A stretch of 36,584 nt of DNA. Source: an uncultured Flavobacteriales bacterium. Lineage in GTDB: Bacteria; Bacteroidota; Bacteroidia; Flavobacteriales_D; Sanyastnellaceae. Below, piece after piece: positions 10,467 to 14,757 of the stretch; position 1 is the first letter of the stretch, and every line of letters begins with the position of its first letter. Where the stretch lies: the NCBI GenBank assembly GCA_938085425.1, contig CALKGQ010000037.1, positions 1 to 36,584 on the forward strand, written 5' to 3'. A program made the translations under genes and the position numbers. Under the pieces are notes generated by a model that saw only the letters and a list, made by a program, of their open reading frames with translations, was not told the origin of the DNA and made no database searches.

Positions 10467-10481
10467 TTCAAGGGAGAATCA
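10464..10481. terminator. Inverted repeat spanning the recJ and dnaG stop codons
   Basis: TGATTC (10464-10469) and GAATCA (10476-10481) form a perfect 6-bp stem with a 6-base loop. It covers the recJ TGA (10464-10466) and the dnaG TGA (10468-10470 on the minus strand). No T-tract on either side, so it is at best a weak or Rho-assisted bidirectional end. Confidence 0.35.
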
Positions 10482-12456
10482 CCGTGCCAAAATGCGCCAG
10501 AGTGTCCCGTATTTGCGTGTCGAGGTGCACCTTTTGGGCGAGCAAATCCCGCTCCATTTCCAGGGACAACCCATCTTCTTTGAGCTTGGCGGAAACTTCT
10601 TCTGAAGCCGTGCGCAAATCCATCAAGTGCAATCGACGGAGGGTTCCTTCCAACAATTCCATGAGTTGATCCCGCTCCACCGTGGGGTAGATCTTGTGTC
10701 TCTGCGACCAGTTGGGGCTGAGGACATGCTGCTGCACCATGGCACCTGCGACCTTCTGCTGAACCCCAACGTCATTGTCTTGGGCCAATTGCTCTGCGGT
10801 CAAAATCCGTTCGTGGTCCAGCTCCGAGGAAAAACGCTGCACCAAAGTTTGGTTCAGGGGTTCCTGCAAGGAAATCCGTTCTTCTTCCAGCCTGTGGATG
10901 ACCAGTTCTGCAAAGGGCACATCCAACAATTGGTCTTCCGAGCCCTCCTCTCCCTTCAAGCGCACAGACACCATGTCGGTGGCGTATTCCAGAAGGGCGC
11001 GCACCAAGTCATTTTCAATGGACGTTCTCGGCGCGATCCGGTCGACGGCCTGCACCTCTCCACCTGCAGGCGGGGGCGACGTGGGGGTGGGCGGCGTGCC
11101 TTGGGGCGAGGGAATCCTGCCGCTGGCCGACCGTTTGGCTGCTGCTTGCGATTGGGCATGCAACACCTTGGCCACCTCTGCGCCCAGCACTTCTTCCGAC
11201 AACCCAAGTTGGGATGCTGAAGATTGCAAATACACGGAGCGCTGGATGGTGTCTGGAATCGCCGCGATGGAGGAAACCACTGAACGGATCATGTCCGCCC
11301 GCTTCAAAGGATCGGTGCCAGCCTCGTCTGAAAGCAACTTCGCCTTGAACTGCAGGAAGTCCTGCGCGTCTTTGTGGATGGCGTCGTGCAATGCATCGCT
11401 CCCCACCTTTTTGGCATAGGTGTCTGGGTCGTCTCCGTCAGGCAACAAAACAACCTTGACGGCCATGCCTTCGGCAAGAAGCATGTCGATGCCGCGCAAG
11501 GAGGCCCGAATGCCTGCTGCATCCCCATCGAAAATCACGGTCACATTCTTGGTGAATCGGCGGATCAAATGAATCTGGCCCGTGGTCAGTGCAGTCCCGC
11601 TGGAGGCCACCACGTTTTCCACACCTGCCTGGTGCATCGCCATGACGTCGGTGTACCCTTCCACCAAAAAACACCGCTCCTCCTTGACAATCGCAGGCTT
11701 GGCCAGGTGCATGCCGTAGAGGACCTTGGACTTGTTGTACAAGATGCTCTCTGGCGAGTTGAAGTACTTGGCAACCTTTTTCTCGGTGCTGAGGGTCCTT
11801 CCGCCAAAGCCAATCACACGGCCCGTGACATCTCGGATCGGGAACATGACACGGCCTTTGAAAAAGTCCCACAACGAGCCGTCGTCGCGTTGCTTGCAAA
11901 GGCCAGCCTCCACCAACTTTTCTGCCGGATAACCAGCCGCCTGACCTGCCTGGGCCATGGCGTCCCAAGAATCAGGGCTGTAGCCAATCAAAAAGGTGTC
12001 CAGCACATCGTCTCTGAATCCCCGCTCCACGAAGTAGCTGCGACCAATGGCTTTTCCTGCATCGGTTTGCTGCATCTGCTCTGTGAACCACTTCTGCGCC
12101 CAAGCGACCACATTGCCCAAGCTCTCCTTGGCTGTGGACGCCGCGATTTCTTCTGGGGTAGGCGCCTTCTCCTCCACCTCAATGTTGTAGCGTCTGGCCA
12201 ACATCCGAAGTGCTTCGGGATAATTGACCTTCTCCAACTCCATGAGAAAGGTGACCAGGCTTCCGCCCTTGCCGCTTGAGAAGCACTTGAAAATGCCCTT
12301 GGCGGGCAAGACGTAAAAAGAAGGTGTCTTCTCGTTCGTGAAAGGACTTAGGCCCCGCAACGAACTTCCTGACTTCTTCAATTCCACGTAATCGCCGACC
12401 ACCTCTTCGATGACAGCGGCGTTCATGATTTGCTCGACGGTTTGTTCTGGGATCAT
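10468..12456 (-). CDS. dnaG: DNA primase DnaG with degenerate zinc-binding domain
   Basis: A 662-residue primase, which makes RNA primers for lagging-strand synthesis. The ATG at 12456 (MIPEQTVEQIMNAA) fits the family start; an upstream in-frame start would add eight unusual residues. The N-terminal CHC2-type domain is recognisable (GLSPFTNEKTPSF ... KGIFKCFSSGKGG), but the usual Cys, His, Cys, Cys ligands are Ser37, Thr40, Cys58 and Ser61, so zinc binding is probably lost. The catalytic TOPRIM core is intact: EGYTDV with the acidic Glu, IFDGDAAG and PDGDDPDTY. A low-complexity P/T linker (~450-470) leads to a DnaB-binding C-terminal domain. It is convergent with recJ; a TATCTTCG box lies 11 bases upstream of the ATG. 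Confidence 0.96.
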   Translation of the reverse strand: MIPEQTVEQIMNAAVIEEVVGDYVELKKSGSSLRGLSPFTNEKTPSFYVLPAKGIFKCFSSGKGGSLVTFLMELEKVNYPEALRMLARRYNIEVEEKAPTPEEIAASTAKESLGNVVAWAQKWFTEQMQQTDAGKAIGRSYFVERGFRDDVLDTFLIGYSPDSWDAMAQAGQAAGYPAEKLVEAGLCKQRDDGSLWDFFKGRVMFPIRDVTGRVIGFGGRTLSTEKKVAKYFNSPESILYNKSKVLYGMHLAKPAIVKEERCFLVEGYTDVMAMHQAGVENVVASSGTALTTGQIHLIRRFTKNVTVIFDGDAAGIRASLRGIDMLLAEGMAVKVVLLPDGDDPDTYAKKVGSDALHDAIHKDAQDFLQFKAKLLSDEAGTDPLKRADMIRSVVSSIAAIPDTIQRSVYLQSSASQLGLSEEVLGAEVAKVLHAQSQAAAKRSASGRIPSPQGTPPTPTSPPPAGGEVQAVDRIAPRTSIENDLVRALLEYATDMVSVRLKGEEGSEDQLLDVPFAELVIHRLEEERISLQEPLNQTLVQRFSSELDHERILTAEQLAQDNDVGVQQKVAGAMVQQHVLSPNWSQRHKIYPTVERDQLMELLEGTLRRLHLMDLRTASEEVSAKLKEDGLSLEMERDLLAQKVHLDTQIRDTLAHFGTVILP

Positions 12457-12467
12457 GGCGGGGTGGA

Positions 12468-12475
12468 CGAAGATA
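12468..12475 (-). promoter_or_regulatory. Candidate -7 box of dnaG
   Basis: TATCTTCG on the minus strand, one mismatch from TAnnTTTG, 11 bases before the ATG at 12456. No -33 TTG at the usual distance. It would give a leader of only a few bases. Confidence 0.35.
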
Positions 12476-12498: not shown

Positions 12499-12527
12499 AA
12501 AAACGGCACCTCTCTCTGGGTGCCGTT
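12499..12527 (-). terminator. Rho-independent terminator of the candidate sRNA
   Basis: AACGGCACC (12502-12510) pairs with GGTGCCGTT (12519-12527), a perfect 9-bp stem with an 8-base loop. On the minus strand it runs straight into five T (A at 12499-12503). On the plus strand no T-tract follows, so its direction is minus, yet no minus-strand protein gene lies upstream of it. Confidence 0.8.
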
Positions 12528-12641
12528 CTCGATGAGGACTAAGTCTTCATCACCTGCTGCCTGCTGCTGCGTTCAGCGAAAAAGGGCTTTCACCTGATGT
12601 TCCAACCGGGGGTGCGAGCGTTCTCATGCCCCAGGAGTTTC
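12499..12641 (-). ncRNA. Candidate small RNA (~140 nt) between dnaG and the sensor kinase
   Basis: This is the only gap over 300 bases in the window (12457-12775). It has no convincing protein gene but carries a complete minus-strand transcription unit: promoter at 12647-12680, expected start near 12641, terminator ending at 12499. Predicted hairpins (plus-strand coordinates): A, 12606-12612 with 12629-12635 plus inner 12616-12618/12623-12625; B, 12548-12552 with 12595-12599, 12559-12561 with 12585-12587 and 12566-12569 with 12574-12577; C, 12531-12535 with 12547-12551 and 12537-12539 with 12543-12545, which competes with the outer stem of B; and the terminator hairpin. In the RNA both A and B are capped by the same AACG tetraloop. 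I do not see the SRP, tmRNA or RNase P signatures; a divergent 6S-like RNA cannot be excluded. The rest of the gap (12681-12775) holds nothing I can assign. Confidence 0.6.
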
Positions 12642-12646
12642 AAGGG

Positions 12647-12680
12647 CAAAACTAGAGTCACCAAGGCGACAGCATGTCAA
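12647..12680 (-). promoter_or_regulatory. Promoter of the candidate sRNA
   Basis: Minus strand: TTG (12678-12680, in a TTGACA context), 23 bases, then TAGTTTTG (12647-12654), an exact TAnnTTTG match with the same box sequence as in front of recJ. Confidence 0.6.
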
Positions 12681-12775
12681 GGAATCATGAACGGGATGTG
12701 AATGTTTGTTGGCGTTGGAGGCGCTTTCTGATTCCAATTTCTTGTGAACCGCAACTCCCTCCCGACCTTGGGGCC

Positions 12776-14062
12776 ATGAAAGGTCGCATGATCCCCTGGT
12801 TGGTGGGTTCCATGACCATTGCCATGATGGTGGTGGTGGCGGTGCAAGTGAGTTGGCTCGAGTCTTCTGCCAAACTCCGCAAGGAGGTCTTTGACCAAAG
12901 TGTGGAACAGAGCCTTCAAATTGTCGCCGGTTGGCTGACCGCCGTCCACTTGGATGAAGGCCAAGCTGAAGATCGCAGCTTGCTTCGCACCGATGAATTG
13001 GCGCCTGAGGAACGCAACATTGTCCGACGACTGGAGGCCTTGCCAATGGATTCGTTGCTGATGCTTGCCTTGCTGGAGCAAAACATCGATGCGAGGCCTG
13101 TTTTTGGTGCCTTCAACCGTTACAGCCAACCCGTCTTCTTGCCAGAAGAGGCCGAGCCCCTCCGTGACGTGTTGTTGCGAGAAGGGTATTCTGTGACCCT
13201 TGGAACCCTTCAATTGCGCATCCACTTCCCTCAATTGCCGAGGTACCTCATGGGCCAAATGCTTGGGGCCTTCGCATTGAGTGTAGGGATGATGCTCTTG
13301 ATCGCGGGGATGTTCGGCTACACCCTTGTGGCCATCCAGCGGACCAAACGATTGGACCGGTTGCAGCGGGACTTGGTGAACAATTTGACCCATGAATTGA
13401 AAACGCCCATTTCCAGCATAGGGCTCGCCTCCGAAGCGATGGCGGACCCTTCTTTTGACAGCGAAACGAAGAAGCATTACCTGGGGTTGATCCGAGAGGA
13501 GAACAAACGGCTCGGGGTGTTGGTGGAAAATGTATTGCGGGCAAGTCTTTCTGAATCCGGCGCCATGCGCTTGTACACCCAGCCATTGAACGTGCATGAT
13601 TTGGTGAAGGGCGTGGTGAAAAACATGGCCATGCAATTCCACAAACAAGGGGCGAAAGTGGAGTTGGACTTGGAGGCGTCCAACCCCAACCTCGAGTGCG
13701 ACCGCATCCATCTGACCAACGTCATGTTCAACCTCATCGACAATGCCATGAAGTATGCTGGAGAGGATCCACACATCGTCATCCGAACGCGTCAAAGCGA
13801 AGTCGGACTCTCTTTGGCCGTCCAAGACAACGGCATGGGCATCGCCAAAGAACATCTTGGCAAGGTCTTTGAAAGGCTGTATCGTGTCCCCACCGGAAAC
13901 GTGCACAACGTGAAGGGATTTGGTCTGGGCTTGAGCTACGTGAAAAATGTCATTGAGCGCCACGAAGGATCGGTCCAAATCGAAAGCACACCGGGGGAGG
14001 GCACAACATTGACCCTGAATTTGCCGTTTGAGCATCAACCTGACAAGACTGAAGAGACATGA
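12776..14062 (+). CDS. Two-component sensor histidine kinase
   Basis: A 428-residue membrane kinase. Transmembrane helix 1 at ~6-28, a periplasmic sensor region of about 130 residues without a known fold, transmembrane helix 2 at ~160-187. Cytoplasmic HisKA domain with NLTHELKTP, phospho-acceptor His ~206. HATPase domain: N-box NLIDNAMKYAG, G1 DNGMGIA, F-box VFERLYRV and G2 GFGLGLSYVKNVIERH. The ATG at 12776 was preferred over an in-frame start at 12674 because the signal-anchor begins right after it and because the upstream segment runs into the sRNA promoter region; a weak GACCTTGG box sits 4 bases before it. The gene overlaps the response regulator by ATGA. The signal sensed is unknown. 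Confidence 0.94.
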   Translation: MKGRMIPWLVGSMTIAMMVVVAVQVSWLESSAKLRKEVFDQSVEQSLQIVAGWLTAVHLDEGQAEDRSLLRTDELAPEERNIVRRLEALPMDSLLMLALLEQNIDARPVFGAFNRYSQPVFLPEEAEPLRDVLLREGYSVTLGTLQLRIHFPQLPRYLMGQMLGAFALSVGMMLLIAGMFGYTLVAIQRTKRLDRLQRDLVNNLTHELKTPISSIGLASEAMADPSFDSETKKHYLGLIREENKRLGVLVENVLRASLSESGAMRLYTQPLNVHDLVKGVVKNMAMQFHKQGAKVELDLEASNPNLECDRIHLTNVMFNLIDNAMKYAGEDPHIVIRTRQSEVGLSLAVQDNGMGIAKEHLGKVFERLYRVPTGNVHNVKGFGLGLSYVKNVIERHEGSVQIESTPGEGTTLTLNLPFEHQPDKTEET

Positions 14063-14757
14063 AAGACATCCGAATCCTCCTGTGCGAAGACGATCCCAGC
14101 TTGGGGAAACTCCTGACCGATTACCTCCGGGCCAAAGGTTTTGTGGCCACCTGGGCCCAAGACGGGGTCGAAGGCCTGAAGGCCTACCACCGCGAGACGT
14201 TTGATTTCATTGTGCTCGATGTCATGATGCCTCGGAAGGACGGCTTCCAGGTTGCGGAGGAAATCCGTTTGGACAGCAGAAGCATCCCCATCCTTTTCTT
14301 GACCGCCCGTTCCACCAAAGACGACACCCTCGAAGGGTTCAAAGTGGGGGCAGACGACTACATGACCAAGCCCTTCAGCATGGAGGAATTGGTGCTCCGG
14401 ATCCAGGCGATTTTGAGGCGCTCCGCCGCACTTCCTGAAGAAGGAGAAGAGGTCACTGAATTCAAGGTGGGGCTCTATGCATACGACTACAACACCCAGT
14501 CTTTGAACCTCAAGGGAGAGCCCCAAAGGTTGACCACCAAAGAGAACGAGCTGCTGTTCATGCTTTGCAAACACAAGAACGCCCTGTTGGAACGAAGCCA
14601 TGCGCTGCGCAACATTTGGGGGGATGCCAACTACTTCAACGGACGAAGCATGGATGTGTACATCGCCAAGCTGCGCAAACACTTGCGTGGAGACGATCGC
14701 ATTGAAATCCTGAACGTTCACGGGAAAGGATTCAAACTGGTGGCGCCAACCGACTGA
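14059..14757 (+). CDS. OmpR/PhoB-family response regulator
   Basis: A 232-residue transcription regulator, partner of the kinase whose stop it overlaps by four bases (ATGA), so the two are translationally coupled. Receiver domain 1-~120: acidic pocket CEDD (9-12), phospho-acceptor Asp54 in FIVLDVMMP, Thr in FLTA, Lys in TKPF. Linker ~122-135. Winged-helix DNA-binding domain ~136-230 with LTTKENELLFMLCKHKNALLERSHALRNIWG and the C-terminal wing VHGKGFKLV. The family binds direct repeats as dimers. Targets are unknown; the adjacent prs gene starts 33 bases downstream but has its own -7 box. Confidence 0.96.
   Translation: MKDIRILLCEDDPSLGKLLTDYLRAKGFVATWAQDGVEGLKAYHRETFDFIVLDVMMPRKDGFQVAEEIRLDSRSIPILFLTARSTKDDTLEGFKVGADDYMTKPFSMEELVLRIQAILRRSAALPEEGEEVTEFKVGLYAYDYNTQSLNLKGEPQRLTTKENELLFMLCKHKNALLERSHALRNIWGDANYFNGRSMDVYIAKLRKHLRGDDRIEILNVHGKGFKLVAPTD

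Follow-up and report, generated by a model that had tools for sequence, protein, structure and literature searches.

The spacer upstream of dnaG in an uncultured Flavobacteriales bacterium very probably harbors an independent small RNA gene, encoded on the minus strand of the window (the whole 36,584-nucleotide stretch of DNA that was analyzed) at positions 12642-12499. The sequence-only reading of this DNA had proposed such a gene, and it recurs at the same place in nine of the 11 genomes of the genus, in the spacer that separates dnaG from a divergent, RprY-like two-component system. Comparison across relatives points to a conserved gene that stands independently, equipped with a promoter, hairpins, and a terminator of its own, and ties the hexamers on the RNA side of the promoter region to the RNA. 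The reading that we favor, with somewhat better than even confidence, is a conserved small regulatory RNA gene that is activated by the neighboring regulator and acts in trans by base pairing without Hfq.

The gap spans the dnaG ATG (12456) to the kinase start (12776), and the features assigned to it are collected in Table 1. The start of the RNA was set by the −12 to −5 placement of TAnnTTTG given for Flavobacterium psychrophilum in the available part of the source (PMC9723704).

Table 1. Features of the dnaG–kinase region, in window coordinates
Feature	Positions	Strand	Remarks
Small RNA gene (very probable)	12499..12642	-	start inferred from the -7 box; end is the last T of the terminator
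dnaG (DNA primase)	10468..12456	-	Pfam DNAG_N, Zn_ribbon_DnaG, Toprim
Sensor histidine kinase	12776..14062	+	HisKA, HATPase_c
OmpR/PhoB-type response regulator, RprY-like	14059..14757	+	Response_reg, Trans_reg_C
-7 promoter box TAGTTTTG of the RNA	12647..12654	-	exact TAnnTTTG
RNA-side hexamers TTCATG-N5-TTGACA	12675..12691	-	11-base phase
Box CCAACA-N4-TTCACA between the divergent units	12697..12712	-	anchored form in RNA-bearing and RNA-less loci
P1 apex, AACG cap, GAG-AACG-CTC	12616..12625	-	AACG-capped counterpart in 4/9 genus members
P2 hairpin, AACG loop, GCTG-AACG-CAGC	12566..12577	-	loop invariant in 9/9; pair changes on both sides
Linker with CAGGU, proposed pairing region	12552..12565	-	GCAGGT invariant in 9/9 genus members
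P3 hairpin	12531..12551	-	stem differs yet fully paired in all nine genus members
Intrinsic terminator	12499..12530	-	12-bp fold; near-identical in 9/9 genus members
Promoter-like box of dnaG, TATCTTCG	12468..12475	-	in 11/11 genus genomes, with or without the RNA

Distribution and structure of the RNA

The window taken by itself makes a modest case. The predicted fold of the RNA shows the terminator hairpin and the hairpin at 12531-12551, with a folding z-score of −1.60 (15 of 200 shuffles folded equally well); extending the stretch slightly gave z −2.02, and removing the terminator gave 0.07. The stem-loop and five T that end at 12499 are present as had been described, and this terminator is absent from the output of a simple terminator scan of the window, which returned six matches against 3.2 expected, a weak excess. 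Since the fold is weak and the scan missed the terminator, the case rests on relatives.

The gene dnaG was found in all 11 genus genomes and in 99 of the 101 in the family sample, and relatives of the kinase lie divergent to it in loci of the genus and of three others, g4, g13, and g14. A first covariance model, covering P2, P3, and the terminator, was trained on six of the nine genus copies; the three members held out score 57-60 bits. Across 114 family genomes, the nine genus copies were recovered with this model at E values of 1.1e-22 to 2.8e-10, the next match standing at 8.4e-5, so that the covariance search beside dnaG that had been suggested with the sequence-only reading finds the RNA at the same place in the genus. 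The dnaG spacers of the remaining genus genomes, G003 and G004, lack it.

A diverged form of the RNA occupies the same place in 11 of the 22 genomes of g4. Nine are strong copies, with E values of 1.5e-33 to 1.1e-20 under a second covariance model (R2); the copy in G126 is diverged (E 4.4e-7), and that in G085 (E 4.1e-4) looks like a decayed one. G085 scores lower than two R2 matches that were left uncounted (G123:C14 and G073) and owes its inclusion solely to its position beside dnaG and its resemblance to the RNA. The absences recorded in G125, G127, G129, and G130 are those returned by model R2, their loci being uninspected. Genus g13 contributes one weak candidate, in G022, that was reported by neither covariance model. 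Weak matches to R1 and R2 at other places in the family were not taken for the RNA; of those to R2, L260-L264 were inspected. Among 399 sampled genomes of the order, no strong R2 match falls outside g4. Nine genomes from outside the family also gave R2 matches (E 2.6e-6 to 9.9e-4); these were rejected, as tblastn detected no kinase, regulator, or dnaG in the eight loci inspected; the ninth, in G238, was not inspected. The absence of the RNA from G003, G004, and half of the g4 genomes indicates that it is dispensable.

Paired changes, which had also been named as a check, support the view that the hairpins are kept in both genera. Among six genus sequences, 10 of 27 pairs changed on both sides (mean of shuffles 5.2, with 3 of 500 reaching this count), and among nine g4 sequences, 9 of 21 did so (shuffle mean 3.5; 1 of 500 as high), counts that are not probabilities because the sequences are related and the structures were drawn from them. 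The alignments used were made from sequence only, with A7 and A8 left out, and controls with slid partners gave 3-5 both-side changes in the genus and 2-6 in g4. The count of further pair types was unremarkable, with 51 of 500 (genus) and 33 of 500 (g4) shuffles as high.

Of the two AACG caps previously described, both are present in the window; the P2 loop is invariant in all nine genus members, as is the linker GCAGGT, whereas the P1 cap, read by eye, is limited to four (G000, G005, G007, and G010). The P3 stem, fitted by hand, is different and fully paired in each of the nine. A hairpin followed by a T run ends the RNA in all nine genus and all nine g4 members, and the terminator loop in g4 is AACG in every one. 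The g4 counterpart of the GCAGGT linker, the 14-base GGTTTTAGGTTCGG, is invariant in the nine members while the surrounding stems change. Predicted ensembles leave this linker mostly unpaired in four members (G069, G097, G131, and G120); in the remaining five it is paired in part or in large part, the latter in G123, G013, and G124. The proposed structure switch fared less well: two competing 5-bp stems can indeed be written in the window, but the alternative stem reaches 5 bp in only two of the nine genus members (G000 and G007), with 3-4 bp in three and fewer than 3 bp in four. The switch was rejected for this lack of conservation.

Phased hexamers and the neighboring regulator

The exact TAnnTTTG box noticed earlier stands before the RNA, and the TTG seen 23 bases upstream of it is the start of the hexamer TTGACA at 12680-12675. 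What had been overlooked is that this TTG is part of an array of phased, TTCACA-like hexamers that precede the RNA promoter. The last hexamer lies 20-21 bases from the −7 box in all 20 RNA-bearing loci (offsets of 12-29 were tested), and the box itself is exact in 12 of these, carries one mismatch in seven, and carries two in one. This fixed arrangement argues for a promoter belonging to the RNA itself.

The box CCAACA-N4-TTCACA, which reads TTAACA in g4, occurs in its anchored form in the 20 RNA-bearing and in 14 RNA-less loci, while nine g14 loci contain no anchored form. Its presence in RNA-less loci suggests that it is probably part of the kinase promoter region, where it is probably the core site of the regulator. 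Beyond the box, at an 11-base phase, RNA-bearing loci of the genus contain two more hexamers, and those of g4 and g13 contain one. Among loci with the RNA, 17 of 20 have a first RNA-side hexamer that scores at least 3 of 4, as against 1 of 14 among loci without it (Fisher 9.5e-6, with no correction for relatedness); lowering the threshold to 2 of 4 changes these proportions to 20 of 20 and 8 of 14. The nine g14 genomes without the anchored box and G085 were left out of this test, and G022 was entered as RNA-bearing. In the window itself, TTCATG scores 2 of 4 and TTGACA 4. Across the 11 genus genomes, the three-hexamer pattern is matched exactly at seven places, every one of them at the RNA locus, compared with three matches in all for the reversed control; the genome of the window has no match to it, even with one mismatch allowed.

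OmpR/PhoB-type regulators bind direct repeats at such a phase and activate from them. The best model for the response regulator encoded here is RprY (NF051850), with 320.9 bits against a curated cut-off of 370, and as the score falls below the cut-off the protein is called RprY-like only. No NCBIfam model scored above cut-off for the sensor kinase among the best 25 of its 88 matches. The TTG-containing array is probably the site of this regulator, and the hexamers upstream of the RNA promoter provide a link in sequence between the RNA and the divergent two-component system, to which a regulatory connection had been suggested.

In genus g10 (L175 and L177), the kinase and regulator genes share the strand of dnaG and precede it rather than diverging from it, and inspection of the region upstream of the kinase by eye revealed no such hexamer box in these two loci. 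A second conserved tandem site, GTAACA-N5-TTTACA-N5-TTAACA, occurs near locus position 1500 in five genus genomes (L130, L132, L142, L143, and L127), where it directly precedes the start of a protein of ∼200 residues with a signal-like start; as it belongs to a different gene, it was set aside in the present analysis.

Proposed mode of action and alternative explanations

We infer that the RNA is transcribed, that the RprY-like regulator binds the phased hexamers upstream and so switches on the RNA promoter, and that the product acts by base pairing. The RNA would fold into hairpins, with the CAGGU linker between P2 and P3, and end at its own terminator; the linker would then pair with mRNAs in trans, free of Hfq. 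RNAs of this sort most often act through a conserved, exposed linker that pairs with mRNAs, and Hfq was not found in the 11 genus genomes. A search of 22 g4 genomes for near-perfect complements of the 14-base linker revealed no trans target: exact complements are limited to the RNA gene itself and one coding-like place in G114, and those with one mismatch are scattered and no commoner than in the reversed control. The linker may yet pair with targets through short or wobble matches.

The conserved loops also lend themselves to a different function, in which the AACG loops and CAGGU hold or titrate an RNA-binding protein, for example one with an RRM domain. The recurrence of AACG in P2 across the genus and in the terminator loop across g4 is consistent with such a role, as is the presence of RRM_1 proteins in 10 of the 11 genus genomes. 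However, AACG may merely be a stable tetraloop (a background test of how common AACG loops are among hairpins in general had too few hairpins to tell), and protein binding is considered unlikely as the main function. One elaboration, which we regard as a long shot, is an Hfq-less Flavobacteriales circuit in which the RNA, driven by the two-component regulator, would titrate an RNA-binding protein of the RRM type through AACG hairpins and CAGGU, a Csr-like logic built from other parts.

The sequence-only reading also overlooked that dnaG lies downstream on the same strand, and a leader of dnaG therefore had to be ruled out. An attenuator in the 5' leader, with the terminator governing read-through, would fit the shared strand, the 41 bases between the end of the terminator and the dnaG ATG in the window, and the fact that the RNA precedes dnaG wherever it was placed. 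Against this, TATCTTCG lies between the terminator position and the dnaG start in all 11 genus genomes, the RNA-less G003 and G004 among them, at 19-37 bases from the start in ten and 99 in G001. Likewise in g4, all 19 rows, with the RNA or lacking it, have an exact TAnnTTTG box 24-30 bases ahead of the dnaG start. Because a promoter-like box of dnaG persists whether the RNA is there or not, and because the alternative stem is not conserved, a simple leader was rejected, and the attenuator reading is quite improbable, although read-through into dnaG may still occur.

The remaining candidates, known RNAs and a small protein, fit poorly. At gathering score, tRNA-Gln is the only Rfam family in the whole window; within the gap matches are at chance level, and none falls inside the RNA in the loci of ten relatives. 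A sub-threshold JUMPstart match (26.2 bits, gathering 35) was recorded outside the RNA in the dnaG-side flank region, at L251:1836-1868. That this is a housekeeping RNA in diverged form (6S or SRP RNA, for example) is very improbable: in favor of it, no 6S RNA scored above cut-off in the 11 genus genomes, but the 6S model (RF00013), whose inclusion in the Rfam scan had been suggested, has no match at the RNA even at E 10, with two weak ones elsewhere (E 2.9 and 3.7). SRP RNA (RF00169) is found elsewhere above cut-off in eight of the 11 genomes, at G000:C14:20180-20278 in that of the window, and the RNA forms several hairpins rather than one rod and is missing from relatives. With neither covariance model matching at the RNA, both families were rejected. 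That the RNA encodes a small protein has next to no chance: the window contains a closed 25-codon ATG frame, but a closed frame of at least nine codons is missing from 11 of 18 members, a similar one (10 codons) occurs only in G013 and G124, and no frame common to all members was found, on which grounds this candidate was rejected.

Relation to known systems

To our knowledge, few small RNAs of Bacteroidota have a known regulator. The favored regulatory RNA combines a probable regulator next door, natural presence and absence among close relatives, and a 14-base invariant linker in one genus, features that make its control and targets directly testable. The RprXY system of Bacteroides fragilis and the RprY of Porphyromonas gingivalis provide the closest named counterpart of its regulator, RprY being the best-scoring model here, yet below the curated cut-off. 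Binding of RprY to its own promoter has been reported in P. gingivalis (PMC3646045), and rprX/rprY are listed as essential in B. fragilis (PMC4072883), which would lend interest to an RNA arm of such a system. The accessible portions of the open-licence literature on RprXY give neither a small RNA partner nor a binding motif of RprY. No such RNA is described in the consulted portions of open-licence main texts on RprXY, Bacteroidetes small RNAs, and Flavobacteriales dnaG, PMC11697453 and PMC6032018 included.

Two orphan intergenic small RNAs of the same phylum, as described in the available parts of their sources, resemble this RNA in being both orphan and intergenic: MasB of Bacteroides thetaiotaomicron, activated by the transcription factor Cur (PMC10994844), and Rfp18 of F. 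psychrophilum (PMC9723704). Unlike this RNA, they carry no mention of RprXY or dnaG in those parts, a comparison made by description and not by sequence.

Taken as a whole, the RNA looks like a new family of a familiar kind. MicF and OmrA/OmrB are trans-acting small RNAs under the response regulator OmpR. This RNA differs from them in that no Hfq was found here and in that its gene adjoins that of the regulator, the sequence relation having been compared through Rfam alone; like them, it is a short RNA with its own promoter and terminator, an OmpR-type operator (putative here), and a conserved linker.
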